Positions 22,136-55,158 of a stretch of 64,000 nucleotides of DNA are shown here, piece after piece; positions within the stretch are counted from its first letter, which is position 1, and each line of letters begins with the position of its first letter. Source of the stretch: Fibrobacter sp. UWB10. GTDB lineage: Bacteria > Fibrobacterota > Fibrobacteria > Fibrobacterales > Fibrobacteraceae. The stretch covers positions 124,001-188,000 of the forward strand of contig NZ_FXUE01000006.1 in NCBI RefSeq assembly GCF_900182935.1. Reading direction: 5' to 3'. Under the pieces are notes generated by a model. The model saw only the letters and a list, made by a program, of their open reading frames with translations, had not been told where the DNA came from and searched no databases. The position numbers and the translations under genes are program-made.

Positions 22136-22166
22136 AAATGCTCGCGGTTTCGCGAGCATTTCTTTT
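22136..22166. terminator. Bidirectional terminator between convergent genes
   Basis: AAATGCTCGCG (22136-22146), loop GTTT, CGCGAGCATTT (22151-22161) and then TCTTTT. The 11-bp stem has A/T runs on both sides and serves both pilD and the convergent lipoprotein gene. Confidence 0.9.
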
Positions 22167-23721: not shown

Positions 23722-24561
23722 TTACTCCAAATTTGAGAACAGGTGGATGTTCATCTGATAAACGCCATCGGCTTTTTCTTTGTCTTCGCCAATAATGCGG
23801 CGGGCCTTCGCCTTGAATTCCTGCAGTTCGGCTTCGAGTTTTTTGTATGCGTCGCTTGAAATGCTGAAGGTAAGCGTGCTCATTACAGTTGGTTGCTTGG
23901 GCGGCGTCATGAGGGCTTGCTTCGAAAGTTCGAAACATTGCAATTGGTATTGCTTGATTAAGTCGGCGTTATTGTAGGGGCCGCTACTAATGCTTTCTTT
24001 AGTGGGTTTCCAGAATCCGGCTTCGTTTTTGCGGGCGAGTCCGAGTCTTTCCAAGAGGGCGAGGGAATCCTTGAGTTTTCCAAGCGGAACCTTCGGGAAA
24101 ATTCGCTTTTGCACGGGCGTCATGTCGTCATCTACGTCCATGGCGTCAAGAATTGCAAAAAGGGCGCTGTTATACCAGTGACTGTAGTATTCGTAGGCGT
24201 CTTCGTTTAAAATATGCTGCGGATTCGGATGCTGTTTCAAGAGCTCTTGCATCGCGGCATTTCGAATCGTTTCGTTTTTGGCTTGGTCGAGTTCTACCAG
24301 GGTTTCGAAATACTTGGCTTCTTTCTTGTCGAGTTCCAGAATTTCGATAAATTTGGCGACCATGCGGGGGGTGACCTTTTTACCTCTGACCACATCGGCG
24401 AAGTAGCTACGGCTCTTTTCGAGACCGAGCAAATTGCAGATTTCGGTACGGGTAAAACCGGGTTCCTCTTTGGCGCGGGCAACCTGGTATTCTTCCAAAA
24501 ATTTGCGGAAGTGCGTAAACTGGTATATGTCTAGAAAACGATTCACGACCTTAATATACAT
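23722..24561 (-). CDS. TIGR02147 / DUF4423 family protein (copy 1)
   Basis: Member of the paralogue family known from Fibrobacter, with an N-terminal FTHFRKFLEEYQ (family pattern DYRxFLxDYY), an HTH-like stretch FTRTEICNLLGLEKSRSYFADVVRG and a DUF4423-type C-terminal half. Two other members occur in this window. I infer a cytoplasmic transcription regulator because of the HTH-like segment; no experimental role is known to me. Start is uncertain: ATG 24561 is used here, but a good promoter (TTGACA, 18 bp, TATATT, minus strand 24582-24553) overlaps it, so GTG 24546 may be the real start. Upstream ATG 24576 is also in frame. It is followed at once by a coupled lipoprotein gene and is divergent from the M6 peptidase gene. 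Confidence 0.85.
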   Translation of the reverse strand: MYIKVVNRFLDIYQFTHFRKFLEEYQVARAKEEPGFTRTEICNLLGLEKSRSYFADVVRGKKVTPRMVAKFIEILELDKKEAKYFETLVELDQAKNETIRNAAMQELLKQHPNPQHILNEDAYEYYSHWYNSALFAILDAMDVDDDMTPVQKRIFPKVPLGKLKDSLALLERLGLARKNEAGFWKPTKESISSGPYNNADLIKQYQLQCFELSKQALMTPPKQPTVMSTLTFSISSDAYKKLEAELQEFKAKARRIIGEDKEKADGVYQMNIHLFSNLE

Positions 24562-24582: not shown

Positions 24583-24780
24583 AAAATAATTGTCTTTTCG
24601 GGGCTTTGTTATGTTTATCACAAAATGGCCAAAAAGTGAAAAATTGGGGCGTTTTAGGCCATTTTCCTCAAAAAAAGATGATAAAAAAAACGTTTTTGCA
24701 CAGCGCTAACACGTTTTTACTTGCCGAGAACATACTTTTTATTCCAAAATGGATTATTTTTAAGGAAAAGGATTTTGGGT
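24562..24780. promoter_or_regulatory. Regulatory gap between TIGR02147 gene and M6 peptidase gene
   Basis: About 220 bp of AT-rich DNA. AAATGGCC near 24625 and GGCCATTT near 24657 form an inverted repeat with a loop of about 25 bases. GAGAACAT occurs near 24570 and again near 24726. The latter copy is about 50 bp before the M6 gene. A purine-rich AAGGAAAAGGA precedes the M6 start. Confidence 0.45.
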
Positions 24781-29390: not shown

Positions 29391-30923
29391 CTAGAATCCT
29401 GTATAGCTGAACGATTTGTAACCGAACTTTTGACCGCAACTGCTGACAAATACCGCTGTCAACTTACCGACTCGGATGCCTGCCAGGCTTCCGCCTTTTT
29501 CGCCGAATTCACGGACGAGATTTCCCTGCAAGTCGAATAAGCGAACCTTCGTGCCCTCGGGTGCACCTTGTACATGCAAGAAACCGTTTGATACAAACAT
29601 GTTCATTGACGGAGCGAGGTGTGCCATCTTCAGGGAGGTCTTCGAAGTGTCCTGTTTGGAAGTGTCCTGCACGGTCGTGTCCTGCTTGGAAGTGTCCGGC
29701 TTGGCTTCTTCGTACGGGAGCGAAGGCGTTTCCCAGTCAATCCAGTCGCCATAGTTGTCAATCTTGAAACCCTTGCCGTTCGTGGGCTTGACGTGAATAT
29801 CGGTATTGGCACTCTTGCCGCGCAGGAACTTGTCGACAAATGCTGTCACGGTGTTGTTCTGGCTGCTGGCTGCCTGGCAATGCTCGTGGCCGCCGGTAAA
29901 GTCAAAGCCGATGCGGTCCTCGATGCCCATGGACTTCCACACTTCGCTTGCTACCATCATGGACTTGTAGCCCGATTCGTCGCCCAGCCATTCGTAGCCG
30001 GGGTTTCCGAGCGCAACCACCGCACGCGGGGCAATCATCGCGATGAGTTCGTGGTGATCGTGCGGGAGCTTGTACGGGTCTTGGCTCTTGAGGCTCTGCA
30101 TGAACCAGCTGTAGTTTGTGTTGTCGATTTTTTCGATGTTCGTGCCGCGGCTTGCGAAGTCTGCGGAAGTGCGCCACGAGTTGATGCCGCCGCCACCCGA
30201 TTCCTGGGCAATGGTGAGCGTCACGCGTTCGTCAAAGGCGCCTGCGAAGAGTGCCATCTTGCCCGCATAGGAACAACCTGTGACTGCAATTTTGCTCATG
30301 TCCAGGTGGTACTGGTCGGCAATTTGCGCAAGGCCGTCAATCAGGCGGCTTACGCCCCAAGACCATGCGGAATAGTCACCGTTCTGGTTTTTGTTGCCGT
30401 AGAACTTGTAGAAGCCCACGTTCGTGTCCTTCTGACCGTTCATGGAGTATTTCGCCACCTGGTCGTGGCTGAAAGGCACCTGCACAAAGCCGCTGAACAG
30501 GCTCGAGGAAAGCGACCCCGTACCGCTATTCATGCCGATGATAATCGGGTGCGGGCCGTTGCCAGACGGAATGTTGAATTTCGATGTGATCGTCATCGTC
30601 TTGCCGCCTTCCTTGACGGTGACCGTAAGGGTGCCGCCGCTGTAAGTGGCGCTCACGTCGGAAGGAATCGGCTTGTCGCCAATTTCGTACTTTTCGATAT
30701 CGGCCTTGATTTCGTTACGGCGCTTGCTCCAGTCGCCATACTTGGTGACCTTGGAGCCGTCGTGGAATTCGAATGGGTTGGGGAGTTTTCTATTGCTCTT
30801 AAGTTCGCCCGCCTTGGCGCCAAGATCCTTGCCGCGGTTTTCGGTGTCGAAATTAAGCGGTATTTCTGCAAATACCATAGAACATAAACCAAAAAGAAGC
30901 GCCGTATGGAGGCCCTTTTTCAT
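29391..30923 (-). CDS. Secreted CE15-like glucuronoyl esterase with altered active-site motif
   Basis: CE15 enzymes hydrolyse esters between lignin alcohols and 4-O-methyl-glucuronoyl groups of xylan. The 510-residue product has a signal peptide (MKKGLHTALLFGLCSMVFA), then VTGCSYAGKMALFAGAFDER with nucleophile Ser218, TIAQESGGGG with candidate acid Glu241, HDHHELIAMIAPR, and GGHEHC with the candidate catalytic His. The usual CE15 motif is GCSRxGK; here the Arg position is Tyr219. After about residue 395 a linker of DTSKQDT-type repeats leads to a sorting-type C-terminal domain (KVRLFDLQGNLVREFG). It is divergent from the GH43 gene across 327 bp that contains a perfect palindrome at 31042-31061. 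Confidence 0.85.
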   Translation of the reverse strand: MKKGLHTALLFGLCSMVFAEIPLNFDTENRGKDLGAKAGELKSNRKLPNPFEFHDGSKVTKYGDWSKRRNEIKADIEKYEIGDKPIPSDVSATYSGGTLTVTVKEGGKTMTITSKFNIPSGNGPHPIIIGMNSGTGSLSSSLFSGFVQVPFSHDQVAKYSMNGQKDTNVGFYKFYGNKNQNGDYSAWSWGVSRLIDGLAQIADQYHLDMSKIAVTGCSYAGKMALFAGAFDERVTLTIAQESGGGGINSWRTSADFASRGTNIEKIDNTNYSWFMQSLKSQDPYKLPHDHHELIAMIAPRAVVALGNPGYEWLGDESGYKSMMVASEVWKSMGIEDRIGFDFTGGHEHCQAASSQNNTVTAFVDKFLRGKSANTDIHVKPTNGKGFKIDNYGDWIDWETPSLPYEEAKPDTSKQDTTVQDTSKQDTSKTSLKMAHLAPSMNMFVSNGFLHVQGAPEGTKVRLFDLQGNLVREFGEKGGSLAGIRVGKLTAVFVSSCGQKFGYKSFSYTGF

Positions 30924-31041: not shown

Positions 31042-31061
31042 TGTGGACAAGTATGTCCACA
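31042..31061. promoter_or_regulatory. Palindromic operator candidate, site 1
   Basis: TGTGGACA-AGTA-TGTCCACA, a perfect inverted repeat, 119-138 bp upstream of the CE15 start. It shares its left flank (ATTCTTTTTAC) with site 2 at 49670. Confidence 0.7.
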
Positions 31062-31250: not shown

Positions 31251-34160
31251 ATGGGTGTATTGGAAACATTCAGGGCGGCGTGTGTCGCCTTATCTCTCGC
31301 GGCTGTTGCCGCATTTGCGGCCTCGGTCGCCGTTCACGATCCTTCCGTCATTGTGGTCTATAAGGACGCGGGCGGGAATTCGTATCCTGAAAACGATGCG
31401 GCCAAGTCGCGGACGAAGTATTATTACATATTCGGGACCATGAACGGGGCGGCATATTCCCGCGATATGCTGGACTGGACCCCGTTTACGCCGCAGCTTT
31501 CGAGGGGCGGCACGGTGTATGTCACTGGCAACGAGGCTAGGGACGATTACTACAGCGTGTTCAAGGCGGAAGCCGACTATGCGGAACATACGAATTCCGC
31601 GACCGCCAAGGGGAACCTGTGGGCGCCCGATATCGTGTGGAACAAGAAGCTGAAAAAGTGGTGCCTGTACTTTTCGATGGCGGGCGAGGACTGGAAAAGT
31701 TCCATTGTGCTCCTGACATCCGACAAGATCGAGGGACCGTACGAGTACAAGGGTGCGGTCGTCTACGGCGGGATGGACAAGCAGACGGCGGGTTCTGCCG
31801 CCAATGCCGACTACGCGAAGGTGACCGGTTCTTCGACAATCGACGAGCGTTACTATATCGCGAACAACGGTGTCACTAATTTGGGCAAGTGGGATGGCGG
31901 CTATGGTTCCAGCTGCATCGACCCGAACGTGTTCTACGACGAGGACGGAAACCTGTGGCTCCTGTACGGTTCGTGGAGCGGCGGGCTTTTCCTGGTCAAG
32001 CTCGATGAGTCTACCGGTCTCAGGGACTATTCGTACAAGTACGGGAACAACGGCGCTGCCAAGTGGAGCGGGACTTCGATGCTCGAGGACCCTTACATGG
32101 GCATCCACGTGGGTGGCGGTTATTATGTGAGTGGCGAGGGTTCGTACATCCAGTATTTCAAGGATGCGGACGGCAATGGCTACTACTACCTGTTCGTGAG
32201 TTACGGGTTCTATTCACCCGAGGGCGGCTACACCATGCGCGTGTTCCGCAGCAAGGACGTGAAGGGACCCTATGTCGATGTGGATGGGACTCCTGCGATT
32301 TTTGAAAAGTTTATCCTGAACTATTGGGGCAATACCGACCGCGGATTCCCGATTGTCGCGAATTACCGCTGGAGTTTCTGGGCCGAAGACCGGGCCGAAA
32401 TTGCGGACGGGCACAATTCGCTGTTGCGCGACGACGATGGCGGCATGTACCTGGTTTATCACCGCAAGTTCAACAACCATACGGGTTGGCACAATGTCGA
32501 GACTCACCAGCTGTTCTTTAACAGAATGGGCTGGATTGTGGCGGCACCTTTTGAGTATCACGAGGGTTACGGGCTACCGGCGCGTGCGCTCGACCGCAGC
32601 GATATCGCGGGCCCGTACAAGGTGATTATGCATAACCCGCCTAGGAACAACCCGCAGACCTGGGAAGATTCTGTGGCGGTGAACCAGGAACAGGACATGC
32701 AGCTCAATGCCGACGGTACGGTGACAGGCGCCTACACGGGAACCTGGGATTACGACTATGCGAAGGGCCGGAGCTACGTGACGCTTACTCTGGGTGGAAC
32801 TGTCTACGAGGGTGTGGAGCTTGACCAGTTGCAGAACGATATGAGCAAGCGGACGCTTACGTTCTCGGCGATGAACAAGGCGGGGAACCGTGCCTTCTGG
32901 GGTTACCGTGTGCCGAAAACCGAAGTGCTGCAGGATGCCCGCTATTACGGCGACAGCGTGAAGGTCGTTGGGAAAAAGGACTTTAGCACGGCATGGGATG
33001 CCTATGACGAATTTGAGTCCGTGAAGGTAAGCGGGAACTTTGTCGCGGAATTTGAATTCAGGAACAAGGTAAAGAGCGGAGCCGAAAACTGGAACAACTG
33101 GGTGCTCGTCTTTAGGAACGGTGGCGACATGTGGTACCTGCGTGCCGACGGCTATTCCGTGGAAACGCTCGGTGGAGAAAATACGGTGCACTACTGGAAC
33201 GCCTGGGGTGAAAACTGGGATGCCTTCAAGAAGATGTACGACGGTGCAAAAGTCCGCCTGCGTGCAGAAAAGGACGGCTACCTGATAAATGTGTATGCGT
33301 TCTTGCGCGGTGCGGCGAAGGATGGATCCGACTCGCTAGTGTATGCGGTTACGGCTACGGGGACACCGGTTGGTGATTACGAAATATTGCTCGGTGCCGA
33401 CGCGGCGTCGCTCGAGTTGAGCCGCGTTGCCTACGGGACGCTTGAAAATCGCATCGTGGCGGGTACGATAAACGACGGTGGCGAATACAATGTAGCGTTC
33501 AATGCGCAGAAGACGGCTGAATACAAGGTCTCGGGCGACTTTAGCGCAACATTCCGCTTTATGAATTACGGAAACAAGCCGGTTTACGGGCTTGCCGATG
33601 CGAACAAGGTGAACAACTGGGACAATTACATTGTGCGTGCGACTGCCGGCGGGGCGACAACGCTGTTGCGTGCCGATGCCTTTGCGATGGATAACGCGGG
33701 GACGTTCGATTACGATTTCGACTGGAACTGGGACGATTTCGCTGGCATCATGCGCAACGCCGAAGTGGTGATGGATGTCTCGCGCGAAAAGGATGTCGTT
33801 ACCTACTCGGCCCGCATCACGGCGCAAGATGGCAAGGCGTATCACTACAAGGCGGTAAACAGGGGCACATCGACTGCCGAGATGTTGCTCGGGTTTACTT
33901 GTGAGAAGAGTGTGGTCGACCTGCTTTCGGTTTCCGTGAATAGCGTGGCGGGCGACAGCACGCAAATCCAGGTGGAAGATCCTGATTCTTCGACCACGTC
34001 GTTTGCGGTTCGCAATGGCGTTGAAACGGGACGCAGCCTGCAGGATATGCGTGGCGCGAAGGTTTACGATGTGCGCGGGCGCCTGTTGGGAACTGCGGAC
34101 AGCCCGCGGGTAAAGGAAATGCGTTTGCGCAAGGCCCGACGGCCCGTTTTTGCGAAGTAA
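31251..34160 (+). CDS. Secreted GH43-family arabinan-degrading enzyme
   Basis: GH43 enzymes are five-bladed propellers that cleave arabinan, arabinoxylan or xylo-oligosaccharides. The 969-residue product has a signal peptide (cleavage near AFA/ASVAVHDP), catalytic base Asp30 in VHDPSV, GNLWAPDIVW, the pKa-modulating Asp224 in SCIDPNVFYDEDG and a catalytic-acid candidate Glu296 in SGEGSYI. The set resembles endo-arabinanase-like subfamilies. After the catalytic part (to about residue 460) there is a lipocalin-like stretch (residues 490-560) and then two homologous beta-sandwich segments (about 575-730 and 740-900, each with NNWDNYIVRA- or NWNNWVLVFR-like cores) that could bind sugar. It ends in a short basic tail (VYDVRGRLLG to RRPVFAK). 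AAAGGAG precedes the ATG. Confidence 0.87.
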   Translation: MGVLETFRAACVALSLAAVAAFAASVAVHDPSVIVVYKDAGGNSYPENDAAKSRTKYYYIFGTMNGAAYSRDMLDWTPFTPQLSRGGTVYVTGNEARDDYYSVFKAEADYAEHTNSATAKGNLWAPDIVWNKKLKKWCLYFSMAGEDWKSSIVLLTSDKIEGPYEYKGAVVYGGMDKQTAGSAANADYAKVTGSSTIDERYYIANNGVTNLGKWDGGYGSSCIDPNVFYDEDGNLWLLYGSWSGGLFLVKLDESTGLRDYSYKYGNNGAAKWSGTSMLEDPYMGIHVGGGYYVSGEGSYIQYFKDADGNGYYYLFVSYGFYSPEGGYTMRVFRSKDVKGPYVDVDGTPAIFEKFILNYWGNTDRGFPIVANYRWSFWAEDRAEIADGHNSLLRDDDGGMYLVYHRKFNNHTGWHNVETHQLFFNRMGWIVAAPFEYHEGYGLPARALDRSDIAGPYKVIMHNPPRNNPQTWEDSVAVNQEQDMQLNADGTVTGAYTGTWDYDYAKGRSYVTLTLGGTVYEGVELDQLQNDMSKRTLTFSAMNKAGNRAFWGYRVPKTEVLQDARYYGDSVKVVGKKDFSTAWDAYDEFESVKVSGNFVAEFEFRNKVKSGAENWNNWVLVFRNGGDMWYLRADGYSVETLGGENTVHYWNAWGENWDAFKKMYDGAKVRLRAEKDGYLINVYAFLRGAAKDGSDSLVYAVTATGTPVGDYEILLGADAASLELSRVAYGTLENRIVAGTINDGGEYNVAFNAQKTAEYKVSGDFSATFRFMNYGNKPVYGLADANKVNNWDNYIVRATAGGATTLLRADAFAMDNAGTFDYDFDWNWDDFAGIMRNAEVVMDVSREKDVVTYSARITAQDGKAYHYKAVNRGTSTAEMLLGFTCEKSVVDLLSVSVNSVAGDSTQIQVEDPDSSTTSFAVRNGVETGRSLQDMRGAKVYDVRGRLLGTADSPRVKEMRLRKARRPVFAK

Positions 34161-38766: not shown

Positions 38767-39615
38767 TTATTTCCCGCCGACGGGGAACAGTGCAAATTCC
38801 AGTTGGAAAACTTTATCGCTCCCTTCGTCTTCTTCGGCGAGGAGCGCGATTTCTTTACGGAAGGCGTTGATTCGCTCTACAATGCGTTCGTAGCCTTCTT
38901 GGCTGATTCCAAGCGTAAGGCCCGAAACATGGCGCGTGCCAGGAGCGTCGCGGTCAATGGAATCTGCAGCGAGCTTTAGGCAATTCTGGTGATAGCCGCG
39001 GAGTGCGAGTTTCGAGGTGCGATCGCCGGTGGTAATGGCACTTTCGGTCAGCACGTACTTGCCCGATTCATCTTTCTTGATGAGTTGACATTCTTCGAGT
39101 AGCTTTACGGACTGTTTTGCCTGTTCGACAGTGATGTTCGGACGAACTTGCTTGGCGAGCGCCTCGTAGTTGCCGTCAAAACCGAACATTCCGATAAGGC
39201 TGCGGATCGTGAGATGCCGCCAGTCGGAATATACCATGTACTGAGCATGCCCGAGCAGGTGCTGCTTTTCGGCGAATCGTACGACTTTGAGTACGGCCTG
39301 CATTTGCTCGAAGGCGGCGTTGCGTTCGTCGGTTGTTTCGGCCTGGTTGAACTTGACAAGCGCTACGAAAAATTCGGTTTCGTGCTTGCCGAGGCGAAGC
39401 CCCGAAGCCACTTTGGGAATGCTTTGGCTCGAAAGGTTTTTGTCGCCGTTCATGACGCGGCTAATAAAGTCCTTGGCCTTGAAACCGATCTTGTCCGAAA
39501 ACACGCGAAGCGAAAAGGCGGGGTTCGCCTCTTTCTTTGCGTTGTAGTAATCTTTCAAAAATTCCCGGTAATCCAGGTATTCGAAGATCCTTTTTGTCGG
39601 TTTCTTTTCGCCCAT
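38767..39615 (-). CDS. TIGR02147 / DUF4423 family protein (copy 2)
   Basis: The 282-residue product opens MGEKKPTKRIFEYLDYREFL, the standard family start, followed by an HTH-like segment (FSLRVFSDKIGFKAKDFISR) and a DUF4423-type C-terminal region (GTRHVSGLTLGISQEGYERI and the closing QLEFALFPV). I infer a cytoplasmic regulator. Unlike the other two copies, its lipoprotein candidate is divergent (39745) rather than downstream. The 129-bp gap carries a TATAAT box and a GTTGTC-TAGA-AACAAC inverted repeat. The C-terminal pattern (QLxFxLFP) is shared with copy 3 (QLNFQLFPM), supporting a common fold. Confidence 0.87.
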   Translation of the reverse strand: MGEKKPTKRIFEYLDYREFLKDYYNAKKEANPAFSLRVFSDKIGFKAKDFISRVMNGDKNLSSQSIPKVASGLRLGKHETEFFVALVKFNQAETTDERNAAFEQMQAVLKVVRFAEKQHLLGHAQYMVYSDWRHLTIRSLIGMFGFDGNYEALAKQVRPNITVEQAKQSVKLLEECQLIKKDESGKYVLTESAITTGDRTSKLALRGYHQNCLKLAADSIDRDAPGTRHVSGLTLGISQEGYERIVERINAFRKEIALLAEEDEGSDKVFQLEFALFPVGGK

Positions 39616-39668
39616 GCCTTAAATGTAAGAAAAATGGTTGCGAAGAGGGGTGATAGTGCAATATTCCC

Positions 39669-39684
39669 GTTGTCTAGAAACAAC
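39669..39684. promoter_or_regulatory. Inverted repeat in the TIGR02147 copy 2 / lipoprotein divergent region
   Basis: GTTGTC-TAGA-AACAAC, one mismatch from the GTTGTC-N4-GACAAC form seen at 44476. TATAAT follows at about 39689. No terminator-like hairpin accompanies this copy. Confidence 0.45.
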
Positions 39685-39744
39685 GCGTTATAATAGGGAA
39701 TATTTGTTTTCCTTTTTAGCGAAACTATATTTATATTAGTGGTG

Positions 39745-41373
39745 ATGGATACTTTGAAATACTTTTTAGCGGGTTTCGTTGCCTTTTTTGTTGGTTGTTC
39801 TTCGGACAGCCAAGTGGCGGGCAATAGTGCCGAAACGGGTTCCCCGGAACTCGCGGGTATCTTGGTGCTTGACAATGGTAAGCCTGCCGCCCGTACGAAA
39901 GTTCAGTGTGTGCCGGGCAACTACAACATCATTGCCGCAAGCGAGGCTGAACAGGTTCTGCCTTCCGCGTTCGAAACCGAAACGGATGAAAACGGCAACT
40001 ACGAATTCGATTCCATCCCGGCGGGCAGTTTCTCTCTCGAGGCTTTCCATCAAGAATCGGGCCAGATGCTTCTAGTGCAGGACCTGAGTGCCGAAGAGGA
40101 CGAGCCCCTTGCTGTAAATGACACCTTGCGTAATTCCGGAACGGTCAAGCTTCTCGTATCGGGCGCGTTCCGCGAAAACCAGGGTGGCGAAGCCATCGTT
40201 ATCGGGACGACAATTCGCAGAAGGGTTTCTGTGCAGAACGGGAAAATCGTGGTCGATAGCCTCCCGGCAGACACGTTTGAACTTATTGTTTACATGGATG
40301 GCATGAGTCCGTTTGGATTTAAGGATGTTTCCGTAAAGCCTGAAGAGACTACAGTCTGGGGCGATTCGGTGACGTACACATTGAAAGCTCCGCTCGCGCT
40401 CCCCGAAGAAATCGATTCGCTCGGCACCGTCGTGAGCGATTTCCCGCTGGCCATTCGCTTGACGAAAAAAGAAATTGCTTTCGATTCTGCGGAGGTGGTG
40501 AACGGCCGCTGGGAGGCCGTGCGCATTTCGCAGGACGGAAACCGCAGCAAGAAACTCCCTATTGCGCGAACCTACTTTGATGCTCATGCCAAAGAGGCTG
40601 TGTTCTGGGTGCGTGTCGATTCGCTGAATATTTCAGATTCTCTGGAACTCCATTTTGACAACACCATGAACCCCGCGTACGCAAAGGATGTGTTCCCCAC
40701 GAACCGCAGCTATTCTTTGGTGTGGCATTTCGATAGCGGCCTTGAACCTGTAGGCGATGGAGCGGAAAAGGGATACTTCGAAGGTCTGCCGACAGGGGCC
40801 GTGGCTGCCGACGGTGTTGTTGGTAGGGGAGTGGAACTTGATGAAGGCGATGTTATTGTCGTCGAGAATTCGAGTGCGGCTGATTCCTCGCGCAAGGTGA
40901 ACTTGAATTACGACGGTAGCGAATATTTCTGCTTCTCGGTGTGGGTAAAACTTGACAATCTCGAAGAAAAACAGACCATCTTTGAAAAGTCCAAGGAATA
41001 TGCGTTGCGCTATGATCCGGAGAAGGGCTTTGTGGTTGACCTCTGGGTTCCCGATACGAGTTCCGATTCAATAAAATACGCCTGGGTGTCTGGAACGTCT
41101 GATATTAAGGCGGGCGAGTGGGTCTATGTTGCCTTCAGCCGCCACACGACTTCGCAGTCCAATTTCTACGTGAACGACCGCAAGATTGAAACGGAGCCGG
41201 AACAAATCGCTTGGACGGGCGTCCGTGAACTGGCCGACTTCAAAGTGGGCGGCTTTACCGGCATGATTGACGAACTCATGCTTGGGAGCTGTTACCGCGA
41301 TGACGACTGGACGCGCCTTACCTACCTGAACCAGCGTCCCGAAAATTACTGGCCAGCCCTTTCGGCCCGCTAG
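39745..41373 (+). CDS. Lipoprotein with regulatory-type, DUF2341-like and LamG-like domains
   Basis: ATG 39745 gives a signal peptide and lipobox FVGC (Cys near residue 19); 542 residues. Domains in order: a carboxypeptidase-regulatory-type beta-sandwich (GILVLDNGKPAARTKVQCVP to SIPAGSFSLEAF), a second beta segment, a DUF2341-like module (FPLAIRLTKKEIAFDS to SLELHFDNTMNPAYAKDVF), and a LamG/concanavalin domain (SLVWHFDSGLEP, FCFSVWVKLDNLEEKQTIFE, WVYVAFSRHT, GMIDELMLG). DUF2341-LamG pairs occur in envelope and secreted glycan-binding proteins. It is divergent from a TIGR02147 gene, and its build parallels the lipoproteins directly coupled to the other two TIGR02147 copies. I infer an envelope glycan-binding partner. 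Confidence 0.83.
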   Translation: MDTLKYFLAGFVAFFVGCSSDSQVAGNSAETGSPELAGILVLDNGKPAARTKVQCVPGNYNIIAASEAEQVLPSAFETETDENGNYEFDSIPAGSFSLEAFHQESGQMLLVQDLSAEEDEPLAVNDTLRNSGTVKLLVSGAFRENQGGEAIVIGTTIRRRVSVQNGKIVVDSLPADTFELIVYMDGMSPFGFKDVSVKPEETTVWGDSVTYTLKAPLALPEEIDSLGTVVSDFPLAIRLTKKEIAFDSAEVVNGRWEAVRISQDGNRSKKLPIARTYFDAHAKEAVFWVRVDSLNISDSLELHFDNTMNPAYAKDVFPTNRSYSLVWHFDSGLEPVGDGAEKGYFEGLPTGAVAADGVVGRGVELDEGDVIVVENSSAADSSRKVNLNYDGSEYFCFSVWVKLDNLEEKQTIFEKSKEYALRYDPEKGFVVDLWVPDTSSDSIKYAWVSGTSDIKAGEWVYVAFSRHTTSQSNFYVNDRKIETEPEQIAWTGVRELADFKVGGFTGMIDELMLGSCYRDDDWTRLTYLNQRPENYWPALSAR

Positions 41374-41547
41374 GCGTAATCCATAAATAATTATTTTTTT
41401 TTTGTAAAAATGAGAACATTTTTGCAAAAAAATCGCTGTATCTATTGACTTTGCGAAAAGAATAACTTATATTCTGTTTTGATATTTTGAGAACATTTTT
41501 GAGAACGGGAATGAATGTTTGTCGGAATATCAAAGGATGTACTTGGG
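41374..41547 (+). promoter_or_regulatory. Promoter region of the PL9/PL1 operon with GAGAACATTTTT repeats
   Basis: A good promoter is present: TTGACT (41445-41450), 17 bp, TATATT (41468-41473). GAGAACATTTTT occurs near 41412 and 41489, with a partial GAGAAC near 41501. The two downstream copies fall in the transcribed leader, the first lies about 30 bp upstream of the -35 box. AAAGGATG precedes the chosen ATG. Confidence 0.6.
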
Positions 41548-44460: not shown

Positions 44461-44475
44461 GGTAGTGGAGCAATC

Positions 44476-44540
44476 GTTGTCTGTAGACAACACGTAAACA
44501 AAGTTTTCGACACTCCTTAGCTTGCTAGGGAGTATTTTTT
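44476..44540 (+). promoter_or_regulatory. Leader element B: inverted repeat plus terminator-like hairpin
   Basis: Perfect GTTGTC-TGTA-GACAAC (44476-44491), then ACTCCTTAGC/GCTAGGGAGT hairpin (about 44512-44533) and TATTTTTTAT. It begins 16 bp after the upstream stop and ends about 28 bp before the downstream ATG, leaving no room for an independent promoter between hairpin and start. Confidence 0.6.
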
Positions 44541-44567
44541 ATGTCAGCATAAAAGTTGGAGTGTGTT

Positions 44568-46608: not shown

Positions 46609-47673
46609 CTATTTGGTGTAAATCTTGTGCTCTGCCATATAGATGGCCAGAAAGTCTATGACGCCGGAATCGGCGCCTTTTACAGGAATATAGCGCAGGT
46701 TGTTTTGCGCATCGGCAATAACGGCTAGCCCCGCGATGAAGTTAATCCAATGGTAATCCTCGTGATACTTGAGGGCGACCTTTTTCTGCGAACCGAAAAC
46801 GGCAAGCGGCATCACGAAGATGTCGTGCGACACCATGATGGTGACGCGTTTCCATCTGGATAAATTTTTCAGGATGACCGTTTGCATAAATTCCTGCGCA
46901 CGGGGCTCCATTTCGTAAAATGTTTCTGGGTATCCGCCTTCGTATGCCCAGCGAGCCATCAGTTCTATTGAACTGCCTTTTAGACCGAGCGCGGTCGCTT
47001 GCTTTGCGAGAGAATCGGCCGAAATTTTTAGGAACCAATTGCCAGTAATGTCGTAATTCGTGATGAGTTTCGGGGACGTCGCTTCGCCGCGTCCTTTCGA
47101 GATTTGGTTTGCGGTTTCGTTCGTGCGCACGAATCCCGAAGTGACGTACGAGAATTCCTCTTCACTCTTGAGTGTTGCTCCTAGATCCTGTGCCATCTGG
47201 ATTCCGTTTGCGGTGAGTTCGGTTTCCAAAGCCACGTCATCTTCACGTTCGGAATGGCGGATGATAAAAACCGCCTTTTCGTCGGGGGCGAGGCTCTTGT
47301 AGACGTCGGCGACGGTAGCGAATCCGTCTTTGTCCAAAACGATTTCCGGAGAGGTATCCATGATTGCGGACGAAGAAGATTCCTCAATCGAGGAGGAACT
47401 GCTGACTTGCAGTTCTGCTGAAGATGATAGGGCGTGCGGAATTTGCTCGCTTGAAGAGGATGCCGGAATGGCCGAGGATGACATTGCCAAAGAAGGCATT
47501 GTCGAAGACGACCATTCCGGGGAATCTTGCTCGGACGACGGCACGGGTATCCAGGAGTGATTGGAGGTTTTGTCGGACGAGCTTGATTCAATATCGGGAC
47601 TAGATACTTTGTCATTGCATGCCGTGAGTGCTGCAATGCATGCGGTGGCAAAGATGAAAATGTACGTGCGCAT
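46609..47673 (-). CDS. Histidine-phosphatase-fold lipoprotein
   Basis: ATG 47673 overlaps the TAA of the upstream SUMF1-domain gene (TAATG), so the two are translationally coupled. The 354-residue product has lipobox LTAC (Cys19), then a long Ser/Pro-rich spacer (SSSSSEQ, SSSSSIEESSSS) to about residue 115. The catalytic part has the branch-1 motif VFIIRHSERED (RHS in place of the common RHG), the branch-1 helix LTANGIQMAQDLG, FVRTNETA (the Arg-x-x-x-TA element) and a second His in TIMVSHDIFVMPL. Family members hydrolyse phosphomonoesters using a phosphohistidine. With an envelope anchor it should act outside the inner membrane; substrate is unknown. Confidence 0.82.
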   Translation of the reverse strand: MRTYIFIFATACIAALTACNDKVSSPDIESSSSDKTSNHSWIPVPSSEQDSPEWSSSTMPSLAMSSSAIPASSSSEQIPHALSSSAELQVSSSSSIEESSSSAIMDTSPEIVLDKDGFATVADVYKSLAPDEKAVFIIRHSEREDDVALETELTANGIQMAQDLGATLKSEEEFSYVTSGFVRTNETANQISKGRGEATSPKLITNYDITGNWFLKISADSLAKQATALGLKGSSIELMARWAYEGGYPETFYEMEPRAQEFMQTVILKNLSRWKRVTIMVSHDIFVMPLAVFGSQKKVALKYHEDYHWINFIAGLAVIADAQNNLRYIPVKGADSGVIDFLAIYMAEHKIYTK

Positions 47674-49586
47674 TATGACCCCCACTGGTAATCACCAGCT
47701 TCATAAACGGGGTTTTCTCCGTTGAAGCCGCGGGGACGCTTGATTTTGTCATCGTAAAGGGTCTTGTTGAATATGCGGAAGTCGCCTCGTTCATAACTTT
47801 GGAATGAAATGTGGCAGAAAATGGGGCCTGCAGGCATATATTCGCTGTAGCTCATGGTGCGTTCGCCAGCGGTGTAGAGGTAGTTGAAGTATTTCCCGTT
47901 CAGCACGATGTGTAGCCCGATGTTGCCCACAGTGAACCAGCGGCCCTTTGCGAGGATATTCTCGTGATGCGTGTCGTCGTAATCCATCACTACGAATTCG
48001 GCGTCCCCATTCTTGTCGAGGTGGAATCGGTATTTGTGGTTGCCGCCACAGCAACGCCCGTCAAAGAACCAGGTGTATCCACTTGCGGCAGCAATACGCG
48101 GGTCGCGTACGCTTGTATCGGGGTGGGCGAGTTGTTCGTCTGTCACGAGACGCTCGGGTTCTACGGCGGCAATCAACTGTTCCAGTGTTTTCGGGTTGCT
48201 TACGGTCGTAAGGCTTACCTTGTTCTTAGCTTCGCTTGCAGCACGGCGGTACAGTCGGTAAGGAATGCCGTCGTCACTAATCATGGTGAGTTCATCTTGG
48301 CTGAACACGTAGTAGGCGTACGTTTTGGTTCCGGTTTTGGTGACCACGTTGAAGCTGCGGTTGTTGAGCGTGTACCATTGGCCGGAAACGTTCGGGAATC
48401 CTGAAACCGCCGCAATTCCGTCTTCGCCGATGATAACGGTATAGTCGTCGCTGATCCAGGCTTCGTCTGCTGCGGTAATGAGGCGGCAGTCGCGGTTTTT
48501 GTCTCCGGCACAAACCGCGTCGCTCGGGTTCGCCGCTTCGCAGGCGCTGATCATTCCCGGCGGAAGTTCGGTAGAGGCCCCTAGCCTAAATCCCATGTCG
48601 GCGGCGCCATCGCGGCTACGGATGGCCCGGCGGCTCACCCGAGCGAATTCGGCGGGCTCGCCGTAACTGCCGCCACGTCGCGTCTTGTTGCCAGAACCCG
48701 TGAGCTGAACCGGGTTGACTTTATCGCCTGCAGTATAACCCACGAGCCAGTCGTACACCCATTCCCAGGAATTGCCACTCATGTCGTAAAGCCCGAGCTT
48801 GTTCGGCTTCTTGCTGGCGACGTCGTGTGCCTTGCCACCGCTGTTTTCGGAATACCAGGCGACATCGTCAATGGCGTTGCCTCCTGAGAATTTGAAGCTG
48901 TCGGCAATCCCATCCTTACCTCCGCGAGCAGCAAATTCCCATTCGGCATCGGTAAGCAGGCGGTATTGCCTGCCTGTCAATTGCCCTAATTTACAAGCAA
49001 AATTATTCGCATCAAACCAGCTTACACCTATTTTGGGGGCGTTTCCTGATTCCCAAGCGTTTTTCTTGCCGCCCATGACGGCGTTCCATTGGCTGACTGT
49101 GACTTCGGTTTTGGCGGCAAAGTAGTCGCTGACGGTTACCTTGTGCGCGGGTGTCTCGTAAATTTTGTCTTGTTCGGCGCAGTTGTCGCACCCGCGTGTG
49201 TACGAACCTCCCGGAACATGAACCATGTCAAATAAGACGCCGTTTACAGTGTCGGAAAAATTTGCAGGTGCAATATATGAAAATCCTGTTCCGCTTGATG
49301 AAACTGGGGGGACAGCAAGTTCACCAGACGAGGAGGAGCTAATAAATAAAACGTCCGATGAACTTGTTGCAGTGAGTCCGCTCGAAGAATGGGTGTCGCC
49401 TGCGCTGAAAGCGGTTTCGGAACTGATTCCCTGAAGAGAATCAGCGTTTGACGAATCCGGAAAATTCGTTGCTGAGGAATCGCCCTCGGTGGGGGGAGTT
49501 AACCCACTTTCGGGCGATTCCGAGCAACCTCCAAACATCCCGGCGATAAAAGTAACCGCTATAACACCCGAGGAAAACTTGTGCAT
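47673..49586 (-). CDS. SUMF1 (formylglycine-generating-enzyme-like) domain lipoprotein
   Basis: Start chosen at ATG 49586 so that the signal peptide (MHKFSSGVIAVTFIAGMF) leads into lipobox FGGC (Cys about 21); 637 residues. A Ser-rich spacer with SSSSS runs to about residue 110. Then comes a SUMF1/FGE-sulfatase domain: MVHVPGGSYTRGC, YFAAKTEVTVSQWNAVMG, YRLLTDAEWEFAARGG, GLYDMSGNSWEWVYDW, TRRGGSYGE and MGFRLG. Many bacterial members of this fold are binding or maturation proteins rather than true formylglycine enzymes, and no sulfatase is nearby. The last 250 residues are unfamiliar (WYTLNNRSFNVVTKTG, WFFDGRCCGGNHKYRFHLDK). It is coupled to the histidine-phosphatase lipoprotein. A palindrome (49670) lies about 85-100 bp upstream. 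Confidence 0.82.
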   Translation of the reverse strand: MHKFSSGVIAVTFIAGMFGGCSESPESGLTPPTEGDSSATNFPDSSNADSLQGISSETAFSAGDTHSSSGLTATSSSDVLFISSSSSGELAVPPVSSSGTGFSYIAPANFSDTVNGVLFDMVHVPGGSYTRGCDNCAEQDKIYETPAHKVTVSDYFAAKTEVTVSQWNAVMGGKKNAWESGNAPKIGVSWFDANNFACKLGQLTGRQYRLLTDAEWEFAARGGKDGIADSFKFSGGNAIDDVAWYSENSGGKAHDVASKKPNKLGLYDMSGNSWEWVYDWLVGYTAGDKVNPVQLTGSGNKTRRGGSYGEPAEFARVSRRAIRSRDGAADMGFRLGASTELPPGMISACEAANPSDAVCAGDKNRDCRLITAADEAWISDDYTVIIGEDGIAAVSGFPNVSGQWYTLNNRSFNVVTKTGTKTYAYYVFSQDELTMISDDGIPYRLYRRAASEAKNKVSLTTVSNPKTLEQLIAAVEPERLVTDEQLAHPDTSVRDPRIAAASGYTWFFDGRCCGGNHKYRFHLDKNGDAEFVVMDYDDTHHENILAKGRWFTVGNIGLHIVLNGKYFNYLYTAGERTMSYSEYMPAGPIFCHISFQSYERGDFRIFNKTLYDDKIKRPRGFNGENPVYEAGDYQWGS

Positions 49587-49669
49587 ACGCACCCCCATCG
49601 AGTCTACATCCTTAACCGGTTTTAATATAAACTTAAACTAAAAGGAAAAGGCGTTATTTATTCTTTTAC

Positions 49670-49689
49670 TGTGGACAATTGTGTCAACA
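49670..49689. promoter_or_regulatory. Palindromic operator candidate, site 2
   Basis: TGTGGACA-ATTG-TGTCAACA (7 of 8 pairs), with flank ATTCTTTTAC like site 1. It lies 84-103 bp upstream of the SUMF1 lipoprotein start. Confidence 0.65.
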
Positions 49690-51237: not shown

Positions 51238-52887
51238 TTATTTTTTGATGTATACCGCATTCAAGTTGCGTCCCTGGATTCTTTGACGCACGATGTAGCG
51301 CCCCTGCGGAAGTCCCTGCGTAGTGAGTCCCACATAGTGGCCGTTCATGTCAAAGATGCCGATTGTTGTTGCAGGGCCGTAGAACGGCGATACCTTTGCA
51401 AGACGTGTCGTAGAGGTATCCTGGTTGGGCTTGTATTTGTCCCAGCCGGGCATGTCCTCGAGCGAAATAACACGTTCGTCACCCATGTTGCTCTTCCACA
51501 CGGCATCCTTCGTCTGGCCGGGCCAGGTTCCGCTCCAGGTGCTGTACCACGGCATCCACCAGCTCCATACGGCTTCGTCGGTGTGCATGTTGTTCACGTC
51601 GGGAATGGGACCGTTTTCGCTGAGTGCGATAATCTTCGTGGCATTAGATGCGTTCTTGAACTTGTCAAAGGCGCTCGCGTTGCTTGAATGGTCGTTTGCG
51701 CTGTTGTAGATGTCGATAGAAAGCACGTCGTAGTATTCGCTGCCCGGATCCCAGGTGGTAACGGTAGAACCTTCGGGGTTGAACACCCAGATCATGTTCT
51801 TCACGCCCTTGACCTTCACCATGCGGTCAAATACCAGGCGGTAGAGGGCCGCGAACTGCTCGCCCGAATTGATACTCCACCAGAACCACTTTCCGCCCGC
51901 TTCGTGCAGGGGGCGGAAAATGCCTGCAACGCCATCTTTCTGCAGTTCGAGGAAGTAATCGGCAATATGGTCAATGTCGGCGATAATTCCCTTGTAGGCC
52001 GCACTTTCGGTGTCCCATTCGGTGGTGCCGCTCTTGAATCCGGTAGAGAAGTCGAAGTCCGTATATTCGTTGGTCCCTGCCGCACTCTGGATGTAGAATG
52101 CGTCCTTCTTGTCGAGGGGATCCTTCCAGTGCCAGGTGAATGCGGGAATGCCGCCTGCTTTCCAGAGACCCTTCGCTATAGAAATCGCCTTGTCGGTGTA
52201 TTCCATGTTCCAGCTACCGGAAGCGTTCGGGCCCGTTGCAAAAAGGAAGTCGAGGCCGACGAGTGCCGGGTACTTGCCCGTGCGCGTGTAGATGTACTTT
52301 ACGTCGTCGTGGGTCTTGAAGTCGGCTCCCAGCGTGTAGCCGCTCATGTCGCCGGTCATGATTCCGCTAATTGTTTTCTTGCCGAAGTTTTCGCGCAAGA
52401 AACTGTAGAGTTTTACTGCGCTTTCGGTCGCGTTCGGGGTGACCGGGCTTGCGGAGAGCTCGAAGGGCTTTGATTCGTAGGCAGAAATGTCGATGTAGTC
52501 CACGTCGATCCAACCCCAGTATTTTTCGATAGCGACGGTATTTGCACCTGCCTTGAGCGTTACGGCCGTTGTGATGTCCGCCCACCCGGTCGTTGCCGCA
52601 AAGTCAATCGTGCCTGCGGTCGCTCCGTTTACCTTGAGGTAGTTTGCCTTGAAATCGCCCGCCTTGTAGCGGATGGTGAGCGTGTACTTGCCTGCGGATT
52701 CGGCGGTGACTCCCGTGAAGGTAATGTTGCCTTCTTGGAGGCTTGCGTACCCTGTGCCAGAGACGCCGCTGCTGTTGACAATTTTTGCCTCGCTAGATAC
52801 GGTTGCCGATTCGGCTTCGTACTTGGTGGCGAAAGCTGTTGTTGCGAGGGTTGCCGCAAGAATTGCGACTGTATTTCTTTTAAACAT
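51238..52887 (-). CDS. Secreted GH26 beta-mannanase with N-terminal CBM35-like module
   Basis: GH26 mannanases cleave beta-1,4-mannosidic bonds of mannan and galactomannan with retention. The 549-residue product has a signal peptide (MFKRNTVAILAATLATTAFA), a CBM35-like module at about 22-138 (YEAESATVSSEAKIVNSSG to DVDYIDISAYE) and a GH26 catalytic domain from about 150. The acid/base Glu329 sits in IFRPLHEAGGKWFWW and the nucleophile Glu424 in IIALSENGP. The C-terminus (IGIFDMNGHYVGLTTQGLPQ) is nearly the same as in the pectate lyase at 36974, a shared sorting-type domain. AAGGAG precedes the ATG. A palindrome lies 77-96 bp upstream, and a TIGR02147 gene is divergent. Confidence 0.92.
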   Translation of the reverse strand: MFKRNTVAILAATLATTAFATKYEAESATVSSEAKIVNSSGVSGTGYASLQEGNITFTGVTAESAGKYTLTIRYKAGDFKANYLKVNGATAGTIDFAATTGWADITTAVTLKAGANTVAIEKYWGWIDVDYIDISAYESKPFELSASPVTPNATESAVKLYSFLRENFGKKTISGIMTGDMSGYTLGADFKTHDDVKYIYTRTGKYPALVGLDFLFATGPNASGSWNMEYTDKAISIAKGLWKAGGIPAFTWHWKDPLDKKDAFYIQSAAGTNEYTDFDFSTGFKSGTTEWDTESAAYKGIIADIDHIADYFLELQKDGVAGIFRPLHEAGGKWFWWSINSGEQFAALYRLVFDRMVKVKGVKNMIWVFNPEGSTVTTWDPGSEYYDVLSIDIYNSANDHSSNASAFDKFKNASNATKIIALSENGPIPDVNNMHTDEAVWSWWMPWYSTWSGTWPGQTKDAVWKSNMGDERVISLEDMPGWDKYKPNQDTSTTRLAKVSPFYGPATTIGIFDMNGHYVGLTTQGLPQGRYIVRQRIQGRNLNAVYIKK

Positions 52888-52963: not shown

Positions 52964-52983
52964 CGTGGACAAAAATGTCAACA
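52964..52983. promoter_or_regulatory. Palindromic operator candidate, site 3
   Basis: CGTGGACA-AAAA-TGTCAACA, between the divergent GH26 and TIGR02147 genes and 77-96 bp upstream of the GH26 start. It matches sites 1 and 2 in both half-sites and in the 4-bp spacing. Confidence 0.65.
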
Positions 52984-53065: not shown

Positions 53066-53914
53066 ATGTTCGCAAGAAACAAAATCAACATATACGATTA
53101 CACCGACTACCGTAAATTCCTGCAGGACTTTTACGAACTCGAAAAGTCGCTCGATCCGACCTTCAGCTATCGGGTCTTTGCGTCTGCTGTGGACATGGAC
53201 GCAAGTCTCTTGGTGAAAATCTTGCAGGGTAAGCGTCATGTGTCTTCGAAAGGTGTTGAACCATTCGTTGAATTGTTCCGTTTCAAAGAGGCGAAGGCTG
53301 AATATTTCCGCGAAATGGTCGCTTACGGCAAGGCAAAGACCGACGAAGAGGTGCGCAAACATTTTGAAATACTCCAGAAAATGCGCCCCGCTGCTTGCCG
53401 CGAACTTGATGAGGCTCGCTACCGTTATTTTCAACAGTGGTACTATCCGATGATTCGCTCGGCGCTCGATGTATTTGATTATCGGGGCCCGCAAAATGCC
53501 GCCGCACTCGCCGAGACATGCATTCCGAAACTTACCGCTACGCAGGTTGAAAAAGCGGTCGAGGCGTTGCTGCAGTTGGGGCTTGCCCGCCAACGCAAGG
53601 ATGGCCGCGTGGAACCCACCGAGGCGCATCTCCGCACGCAGGAACACTGGCTGAGTGCCACCATTAGCGACTACCAGGGACGTATTGCGGAACTGGCGCG
53701 CGACTCGATAGCCAACACGCCGAAGGAAAAGCGCGATATCAGCACGCTCACCATGGCGCTTGACTCAAAACAGATCCAAAAAATCCGCGATATCCTCGCC
53801 GAAACGCGAAAATCCATCGTAAATGTGGTCAATGCGATGCCTTCGCAAATTTGCGACAGCGTTTATCAATTAAATTTCCAGTTATTCCCGATGATGAAAA
53901 AGGAAGAACGGTAA
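53066..53914 (+). CDS. TIGR02147 / DUF4423 family protein (copy 3)
   Basis: The 282-residue product opens MFARNKINIYDYTDYRKFLQ, followed by the HTH-like FSYRVFASAVDMDASLLVKI and a recognition-like segment LQGKRHVSSKGVEPFVELF. A DUF4423-type C-terminal region runs from about residue 110 (YFQQWYYPMIRSALDVFDY) to the closing QLNFQLFPM. I infer a cytoplasmic regulator. The start is clear because upstream sequence is AT-rich promoter DNA. Its stop is 2 bp before the ATG of the downstream lipoprotein gene, and that gene's ribosome site (AAGGAAG) lies in its last codons. It is divergent from the GH26 mannanase gene, with operator candidate site 3 between them. Confidence 0.88.
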   Translation: MFARNKINIYDYTDYRKFLQDFYELEKSLDPTFSYRVFASAVDMDASLLVKILQGKRHVSSKGVEPFVELFRFKEAKAEYFREMVAYGKAKTDEEVRKHFEILQKMRPAACRELDEARYRYFQQWYYPMIRSALDVFDYRGPQNAAALAETCIPKLTATQVEKAVEALLQLGLARQRKDGRVEPTEAHLRTQEHWLSATISDYQGRIAELARDSIANTPKEKRDISTLTMALDSKQIQKIRDILAETRKSIVNVVNAMPSQICDSVYQLNFQLFPMMKKEER

Positions 53915-53916
53915 AA

Positions 53917-55158
53917 ATGTTCCAGGTGTTTAGGATTCATAAATTGTTTTATTTCGTGCTCGGCCTGATTCTGGCGGCGTTTTCGGGCTGTTCCGACAGC
54001 GGCCCTGAAACTGCCGGAGCCACGAGCGAAACGACGAACGGGATTGCGGTCGTTGCGCTTGATGGAGTTCACAAGCCTGTGCCACAAGCGCGCGTCACTT
54101 TGTATCAGCGTGCTGGTTTCACTCCTGCGGAAAGTCCGTCCGAAGACGTGAATATCCAGGATGTGAGTCAGTTCCTCCCGTCTTATGTCACTGCGCTGGA
54201 AACCTCCACGGCAGATGATTCCGGAATGGTGCAGTTCGAGACTCGGCTGGATCAGTGCCAAGGTGCAAGGTGCTATGTCGAGGGAATTGCCGGCGAGGAC
54301 TCCTCGCTTATGGTGTGGACAAAAATCAATGCGGCAGATTCCTTGGCAGATGAAATCGAGCTCTTGCCGTCTGTATCGCTTACGGTGCGTACCGGGGCGG
54401 CCGTTTCCGATTCTACTGTCTTGGGCAGTTCCGTGATGCTTGATGCGACTCCCTATTGCGCCAAAAATGATGGAAACGATTTCGTATTCACGCATGTTCC
54501 GGCGGGTCTATATACCATTGTCGCGAATAGTCAGCCCGTTGGCGATATTTCGCTTGACGCGGGCACTTCTGTTGACACGCTCCTGTGGTTCCAGGATTTG
54601 TCTCACGAATACGTTTTCGAGGATTTTGATGACGGTGACAATCTGAACAATTTGGCGAAAATATACCCGAATTACGGTTGGTACTACATACCGCACAAGG
54701 GGGCTACCTTCGAAAGTCCCGATAGTACGGGCTTTACGAGTGCGCTGATTGATGACGTTGCTAGCGGAAAGTATCTTTCGCTGAAGTTTACCATCCAGGA
54801 TTCGGGCTACGTGATGCTCGGGACGCACCTTGGGCTTGATTCCGGCTACTATGATTTGAGCGCACTTTCCGCAGTCCGTATGAAAGTCCGCGGTGACTGC
54901 ATGTTTGCCGTTGCGCTTGAACATTACCGCCAAATCGAGAATAACAACTATAACAAGGCGCTGTGGTTTACGAAGGCGAGCGATGGATGGACCGAACTGG
55001 TCTTACGCCCAGGCGAAGAAATCGTGGACAGTAAGAATTATCAAGTCTCTTGGGACGAAATCTCAAGCGAAATTGGCATATTCAGCATCTTTATCTATAA
55101 CGGATCTTTCCTGGAAATAGATGAAATTGTATTCGAAGGGATTGGCTCGATTGAATAA
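53917..55158 (+). CDS. TIGR02147-partner lipoprotein with CBM11-like C-terminal domain
   Basis: ATG 53917 gives a 413-residue product with signal peptide and lipobox FSGC (Cys about 25). The mature part has a carboxypeptidase-regulatory-type module (GIAVVALDGVHKPVPQARVT to ARCYVEGIAGEDSS), a second small beta module (VFTHVPAGLYTIVANSQPVG), and from about residue 228 a jelly-roll resembling CBM11/CIA30 domains: YVFEDFDDGDNLNNLAKIYP, YDLSALSAVRMKVRGD, WTELVLRPGEEI. Such domains bind beta-glucans or other polysaccharides. Translation is coupled to the TIGR02147 gene. I infer an envelope glycan-binding partner; whether it signals to that protein is unknown. Leader element C lies directly downstream. 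Confidence 0.82.
   Translation: MFQVFRIHKLFYFVLGLILAAFSGCSDSGPETAGATSETTNGIAVVALDGVHKPVPQARVTLYQRAGFTPAESPSEDVNIQDVSQFLPSYVTALETSTADDSGMVQFETRLDQCQGARCYVEGIAGEDSSLMVWTKINAADSLADEIELLPSVSLTVRTGAAVSDSTVLGSSVMLDATPYCAKNDGNDFVFTHVPAGLYTIVANSQPVGDISLDAGTSVDTLLWFQDLSHEYVFEDFDDGDNLNNLAKIYPNYGWYYIPHKGATFESPDSTGFTSALIDDVASGKYLSLKFTIQDSGYVMLGTHLGLDSGYYDLSALSAVRMKVRGDCMFAVALEHYRQIENNNYNKALWFTKASDGWTELVLRPGEEIVDSKNYQVSWDEISSEIGIFSIFIYNGSFLEIDEIVFEGIGSIE

Follow-up and report, generated by a model that had tools for sequence, protein, structure and literature searches.

The near-obligate pairing of TIGR02147 genes with lipoprotein genes, a short tag common to these lipoproteins and predicted operators that track their regulators across genomes make it most likely that the TIGR02147 proteins of Fibrobacter sp. 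UWB10 are paralogue-specific transcription factors. As we read the sequences, they are probably cytoplasmic one-component regulators that recognize 18-bp operators of their own and control the tagged lipoprotein as well as local enzymes. The window, i.e., the whole stretch of 64,000 nucleotides that was analysed (C6:124001-188000 of the 3.48-Mb genome), holds three such modules, A, B, and C, whose features are collected in Table 1. The pairing, the tag, the conserved footprints and the match between site and regulator profiles were established by computation.

Table 1 Features of the three TIGR02147 modules and their predicted sites and targets in the window.
Feature	Coordinates	Strand	Basis
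Regulator A, TIGR02147/DUF4423	53066..53914	+	NCBIfam 241 bits, Pfam DUF4423 109 bits, AF2, fold matches
Partner lipoprotein A	53917..55158	+	lipobox FSGC, tag, beta modules, C-terminal CIA30/CBM11-like region
GATSETTNG tag in lipoprotein A, 9 residues past the lipidated Cys	54016..54042	+	20-orthologue block; PWM
GH26 + CBM35 enzyme, divergent from regulator A	51238..52887	-	domain matches; linkage in 18/20 loci
Predicted operator A1 GTGGACAAAAATGTCAAC, GH26/regulator A divergent promoter	52965..52982	+	19/20 orthologous loci; genome-wide search
Predicted operator A2 GTGGACAATTGTGTCAAC, 73 nt upstream of gene 47673-49598 (-)	49671..49688	+	conserved upstream of orthologues
Predicted operator A3 GTGGACAAGTATGTCCAC, palindrome between CE15 and GH43 genes	31043..31060	+	pattern search
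Lipoprotein with FGE-sulfatase-type domain, putative A2 target	47673..49598	-	lipobox, domain match
Glucuronyl esterase (CE15-type), putative A3 target	29391..30923	-	domain match
GH43 enzyme, putative A3 target	31251..34160	+	domain match
Regulator B, TIGR02147/DUF4423	38767..39615	-	NCBIfam 305 bits
Partner lipoprotein B, divergent; LamG_3, CarboxypepD_reg	39745..41373	+	domain matches, lipobox
Tag GNSAETGSP of lipoprotein B	39820..39846	+	profile A6, E 9e-5
Predicted operator B CGTTGTTTCTAGACAACG, between regulator B and lipoprotein B	39668..39685	-	20/20 loci; genome profile
Possible second B-type site, 1 mismatch, before gene 44556-46538	44475..44492	+	weak
Regulator C, TIGR02147/DUF4423	23722..24561 (start uncertain, up to 24621)	-	NCBIfam 288 bits
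Partner lipoprotein C, LamG_3	22165..23718	-	domain match, lipobox
Divergent tag GVLTETESG of lipoprotein C	23587..23613	-	weak PWM score -4.3
M6-type peptidase, divergent from regulator C	24721..26832	+	domain match

TIGR02147 genes are paired with lipoprotein genes

An earlier note on this DNA had described three TIGR02147 genes, each with a lipoprotein partner; all three indeed score above the family cut-off and each partner has a lipobox. Stop and start codons lie 2-3 nt apart in modules A (regulator stop ending at 53914, lipoprotein ATG at 53917) and C (stop 23722, ATG 23718), with the lipoprotein ribosome site inside the TIGR02147 gene (AAGGAAG and GGAG, respectively), and module B is divergent (39615/39745), as the note had it. 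The genome contains 28 TIGR02147 genes, 3 of them within the window. We took the surroundings of all 28 and analysed them with a home-made gene caller and a home-made lipobox detector: a lipobox-protein gene adjoins 28/28 (in 27 cases 3' of the regulator in the same orientation, in one case divergently; the count includes caller misses read by hand), as compared with 32 lipoproteins among 272 genes (~12%) in 16 random 20-kb stretches of the same genome (Fisher p 5e-23). A fully automatic rule gave 25/28 TIGR02147 genes with an adjacent lipoprotein versus 48/257 controls (p 8e-14). Among the genes around the 28 copies, only the regulator and the lipoprotein make up the modules. The abundance of lipoproteins in Fibrobacter (about 12% of sampled genes with our detector) might suggest that the pattern is an artefact of family annotation or a chance cluster where CAZyme genes abound; we reject this explanation, to which we give practically no credence, because of the 28/28 adjacency, the occurrence in other phyla, and the motif and operator evidence.

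TIGR02147 is present in 141/151 Fibrobacterota genomes, with 1 to 88 copies per genome according to first-look candidate counts. The automatic rule found an adjacent lipoprotein at 37/44 loci in other Fibrobacterota, 76/85 loci from a species-genome scan and 21/25 loci in non-Fibrobacterota genomes, three locus sets that overlap slightly. The non-Fibrobacterota genomes were labelled Desulfobacterales, Desulfosudis, Deltaproteobacteria, Proteobacteria, and Bdellovibrionales; some of these records are metagenome bins, so that misbinning is possible for single contigs. Several misses of the automatic rule proved to be lipoproteins on hand reading; L099, L141, and L172 are among the possible or true exceptions. 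An enrichment of lipoproteins beside TIGR02147 genes in other genomes had been named beforehand as one of two tests on which the idea would stand or fall, and it revealed a near-obligate pairing. The pairing recurs throughout Fibrobacterota and in Desulfobacterota/Bdellovibrionota-like genomes. Two Fibrobacterota genera, g18 (G003, G044) and g22 (G010, G014, G018, G036), lack TIGR02147 and serve as natural negative controls for phylogenetic profiling.

The commonest spacing between the two genes is a 4-nt stop/start overlap. Gene order is reversed in G012 and G074 (L066, L198), with the partner lipoprotein still adjacent or close; since the pair survives both this reversal and the divergent layout of module B in the window, it is more than one frozen operon. 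Lipoprotein A lies beside regulator A in 20/20 orthologous loci, the lipoproteins being 37-81% identical and the regulators 73-95%, and a similar lipoprotein gene lies downstream of regulator C in 20/20 orthologous loci, with identity down to 24%. At L005:1508-4940, a TIGR02147-lipoprotein pair is followed by three more lipoproteins in a row with AGGxxEE-like N-termini, which looks like a lengthening of the cassette through duplication; three tandem modules each are present in L005 and L007.

Regulator family and predicted fold

By score, the window regulators belong to TIGR02147 (241-305 bits against a cut-off of 50) and DUF4423 (89-118 bits against 30), that is, to a family of paralogues without stated function (TIGR02147 is also named Fsuc_second). 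A search of published papers returned none on TIGR02147, its lipoprotein partner or GTETGNP; the family's curator notes may contain an earlier remark on the lipoprotein neighbours of TIGR02147. DUF4423 had a single passing mention in the searched literature, for Bd3700 (PMC12546842).

The AF2 model of regulator A (mean pLDDT 89, above 90 in residues 12-97), together with fold matches, showed an XRE-type HTH (residues 12-97), a winged helix (112-195), and a C-terminal domain, in agreement with the HTH-type regulator proposed earlier. Residues 12-97 matched HigA/GraA-type HTH chains (Z up to 8.8, rmsd 2.4 over 75 residues) and residues 112-195 matched ArsR/BlaI-type winged helices (Z about 8), moderate values that support the predicted fold and not a function; it is at this fold level only that the regulator A model has the lambda-repressor-like HTH of XRE-type factors. 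Foldseek alone gave no significant whole-length match for regulator A. The C-terminal half is conserved and common to all TIGR02147 paralogues. Across the A, B, and C ortholog groups, within-group minus between-group identity was highest in XRE helices 2-3 (residues 33-56), by a small margin over the other regulator regions; being constant among orthologs and variable among paralogs, these helices show the pattern expected if the XRE HTH reads the operator.

TIGR02147 units resemble HigA-type XRE regulators in their five-helix HTH, in a palindromic predicted operator upstream of their own gene and in their small operon, but they differ by the extra winged-helix and C-terminal domains and by having an exported lipoprotein, and not an RNase toxin, as partner. 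A toxin-antitoxin-like or selfish two-gene cassette, composed of a HigA-like regulator and a harmful lipoprotein, would agree with HigA/GraA antitoxins being the nearest fold match to the N-terminal domain (Z about 8.8), the many copies, the overlapping genes and the autoregulatory palindrome. However, the partners are lipoproteins where HigBA has a small HigB-type RNase, and they are large modular proteins of diverse make-up (with LamG, FISUMP or pectate-lyase domains), the linkage to enzymes is conserved, and many XRE regulators have a HigA-like fold; we consider such a cassette very improbable.

Predicted operators and target genes

The intergenic alignment of module A orthologues has decayed except for the palindrome GTGGACAAAAATGTCMAC, located at -97 to -103 in 19/20 orthologous loci, and the predicted A operator has 18 bp in a 6-N6-6 arrangement (GTGGAC-N6-GTCMAC). 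The pattern GTGGACA-N4-TGTCMAC has exactly three sites in the genome, all in the window (52965, 49671, and 31043), and a reversed-pattern control gave none in the whole genome. The A2 site is conserved upstream of the 47673-49598 orthologue in most loci having that gene. When we compared site and regulator profiles in 71 Fibrobacter genomes, an A site occurred in 43/45 genomes with a regulator A orthologue versus 2/26 without (p 2e-14, ignoring kinship, the related species not being independent); as A1 sits in the promoter of regulator A itself, part of this match is linkage. In module B, the predicted operator is the palindrome CGTTGT-N6-ACAACG at -72, kept in 20/20 loci (in one or two of them with one base altered) and found in 43/45 Fibrobacter genomes with a regulator B orthologue versus 0/26 without (p 2e-17). 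We assigned these operators from their position and their joint inheritance with the regulators. For module C, many orthologues show a direct repeat TTCTCA-N6-TTCTCA that is degenerate in the window's own clade, and we hold it only loosely to be a candidate operator. The same repeat occurs exactly at 41488-41505 (-), just before a PL9-like gene (41515-42933) that could be a target of regulator C. For TIGR02147 genes in general, inverted repeats were only slightly more frequent upstream (30%) than in control intergenic DNA (21%), and their excess over shuffled sequences mostly vanished against control intergenic regions.

The conserved predicted operators in divergent enzyme promoters agree with the idea, put forward in the earlier note, that the modules control nearby enzymes. 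Its observation that modules abut secreted enzymes was confirmed for the Peptidase_M6, PL1s, PL9-like, and GH26+CBM35 proteins; the exception was gene 55373-57673, 3' of module A, a PL1 by homology to relatives only, in which Pfam finds just Big_7. Abutment is true of this CAZyme-rich window, but we found no enrichment in secreted neighbours over the 28 modules, so that enzyme control would be a feature of some modules. The divergent GH26 gene is kept in 18/20 orthologous module A loci, the linkage of the PL1 gene 55373 is not kept beyond near relatives among these 20 loci, and an M6-type peptidase lies beside regulator C in 8/20 orthologous loci, three of these peptidases being only 29% identical. 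Most B orthologues have a gene for a secreted PL1-like protein divergent from the regulator, with the tagged lipoprotein behind it in several, so that the layout in the window looks like a shortened form. The product of 55373-57673 resembles the protein divergent from regulator B, before lipoprotein B, in other Fibrobacter species, and the window seems to hold a rearranged copy of that PL1-type gene. Also beside module A is a eukaryote-like Ser/Thr protein kinase gene (59179-60279, -), adjoining a gene for a 495-residue putative membrane protein (57645-59132); its linkage to the module is not conserved in the orthologous loci examined.

Partner lipoproteins and their tag

The sugar-binding-type C-termini attributed to the three window lipoproteins were borne out in part: LamG_3 was above cut-off in two of them (22165-23718 and 39745-41373), and CIA30 (53917-55158) and DUF2341 were below threshold. 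The CIA30 (CBM11-type) match of lipoprotein A had an E value of 0.014, reaching 1.4e-4 in orthologues; the structural model of this lipoprotein, built from two sequences only, was poor (pLDDT 50), and PDB sequence searches with this protein gave nothing useful. As a general feature of the partners, glycan-binding domains did not hold up, Pfam finding LamG in 3/28 and a CBM in 1/28 and, in the others, FISUMP, carboxypeptidase-regulatory-like or no known domains. In the F. succinogenes proteome, lipoproteins with carboxypeptidase-regulatory-like domains are reported to change between cellulose and glucose, in a study that makes no mention of TIGR02147 (PMC6851124); these changes are compatible with regulated partners.

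With mature lengths of ~170-640 residues in this genome, the partner lipoproteins can scarcely be aligned (column identity averages 12%), with one common block, ACSxxxxxxAGGxxExxN, after the lipobox. Just after the lipidated cysteine, these otherwise unrelated proteins have in common a tag with the consensus G-[ST]-E-T-x-N-[GP] (in its PWM form G-[GTS]-[GS]-[ST]-E-T-[GTV]-N-[GP], mostly 5-10 residues after Cys). A PWM trained on other genomes only separated the partners from the other lipoproteins of the genome with an AUC of 0.88 (p 7e-9), lipoprotein A having the highest score in the genome; we used it instead of a strict regular expression, which was too narrow (11/28 vs 3/54). Profile A6, which covers signal peptide and tag (36 rows, three from this genome), had nine matches below E 0.05 in the genome, all beside TIGR02147 genes, and the next one (E 0.24) covers the signal peptide only. 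Outside the modules, the tag was found in 1/257 control gene ends and is thus nearly absent from other lipoproteins, and in the six Fibrobacterota genomes without TIGR02147 the best profile matches had no E-T-x-N core when read. Outside Fibrobacterota the tag takes the form GTExGNP (e.g., CGTEIGNP and CYGGGTEIGNP). GATSETTNG is invariant in 20 lipoprotein A orthologues that are 41-81% identical to lipoprotein A, its distance to Cys being variable. Codons are used in the tag as they are elsewhere in the gene, which places the constraint on the protein and led us to reject a DNA or RNA operator inside the gene. A natural tag repeat, with three consecutive tags GGSEVGNPDPEQGGSEVGNPDPEGGGAEAGNP, occurs in a lipoprotein after TIGR02147 (L164; G153, C358). 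The sole orphan seen, in L195 (G008 C14:56500-62000), is a lipoprotein, CTNNVAGNSIKKGNP, whose tag is degenerate and which has no TIGR02147 gene within the stretch retrieved; this may reflect tag decay after regulator loss.

Since the tag is confined to TIGR02147 partners and disappears with TIGR02147, we lean slightly towards its being functionally coupled to these regulators. It is nevertheless quite possible that the lipoprotein is an output only, TIGR02147 sensing an unknown cytoplasmic ligand (e.g., an imported oligosaccharide) and the tag being a sorting or processing signal for surface display: the modules encode no trans-envelope component, the tag lies within a few residues of Cys, at the usual place of lipoprotein sorting signals, and the operators account for control without feedback. 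However, a general sorting signal would be expected on surface lipoproteins outside the modules, where the tag is nearly absent, and relatives without TIGR02147 showed no tag. We consider it rather unlikely that TIGR02147 reads the tag as its ligand, either in the unexported precursor or in a surface-released and re-imported N-terminal peptide, as feedback on export or surface binding. Its close tie to TIGR02147 partners, the constraint at the protein level and the conserved C-terminal half of all paralogues would fit, but no peptide site was identified in TIGR02147, and a tag similar in all paralogues cannot alone give cognate specificity.

Proposed mechanism

Our preferred reading is that of a paralogue-specific transcription factor, in which each regulator and one tagged lipoprotein would form a fixed unit. 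The regulator would bind its own 18-bp operator (two 6-bp half-sites with a 6-bp spacer), ~70-100 bp upstream of the gene, probably as a dimer through its N-terminal XRE-type HTH, and would control its own operon with the lipoprotein and, in the window, also divergent or nearby plant-polymer enzymes; here we infer DNA binding, the dimer and the direction of control. The lipoprotein would be held by its lipid anchor after export, would carry the tag in the segment that separates this anchor from the first domain, and would have a variable outer domain. The regulatory half of the earlier idea of a surface-sensing system is, at the level of predicted sites, well supported for modules A and B. As to its sensing half, the lipoprotein may sense glycans and may signal back to the regulator; we tentatively propose that it could also be an input, whose tag, in the precursor or in a peptide clipped from it, would be recognized by the conserved C-terminal half of the regulator or by common processing machinery. 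No route from the outer membrane to the cytoplasm was identified in the modules, and the 28 regulators have no membrane segment (no 19-residue stretch above 1.43 hydropathy). That TIGR02147 and its tagged lipoproteins are an undescribed trans-envelope signalling family extending over at least Fibrobacterota and Desulfobacterota/Bdellovibrionota-like lineages, with the tag of the surface lipoprotein as input to a cytoplasmic DNA-binding protein that has no membrane-spanning intermediary of its own, seems to us doubtful.

Two known types of system offer points of comparison. The polysaccharide utilisation loci of Bacteroidota have SusCD and are controlled by hybrid two-component systems or ECF-sigma/anti-sigma pairs. 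As in these loci, a surface glycan-binding lipoprotein, a local regulator and secreted glycan enzymes occur together here, but the TIGR02147 unit has no SusC/TonB receptor, no membrane-spanning sensor and no anti-sigma factor, and no membrane-spanning signalling protein of the ECF-sigma/anti-sigma or hybrid two-component kind. In Gram-positive bacteria, lipoprotein-derived peptides signal to cytoplasmic RRNPP-type receptors, a scheme that would likewise connect an HTH regulator in the cytoplasm with a lipoprotein that is exported; however, the conserved stretch of TIGR02147 partners is in the mature lipoprotein and not in the signal peptide, and no TPR domain is evident. The C-terminal part of regulator A was modelled as a winged helix plus helices, and TPR receptors were not among the listed fold matches, which excludes nothing.

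Fibrobacter is a chief fibre digester of the rumen, and our literature search found no described regulator of its enzymes. The present analysis proposes a likely function for a multi-copy family found across the phylum, predicts its operators and target genes, and adds a new lipoprotein tag. Should this tag act as a signal input, it would represent a new kind of coupling between outer membrane and nucleoid; if it is a surface-display signal, it would represent a new lipoprotein sorting rule. Our results suggest that TIGR02147-tagged lipoprotein units tie surface proteins to gene control in a manner that is widespread and undescribed.
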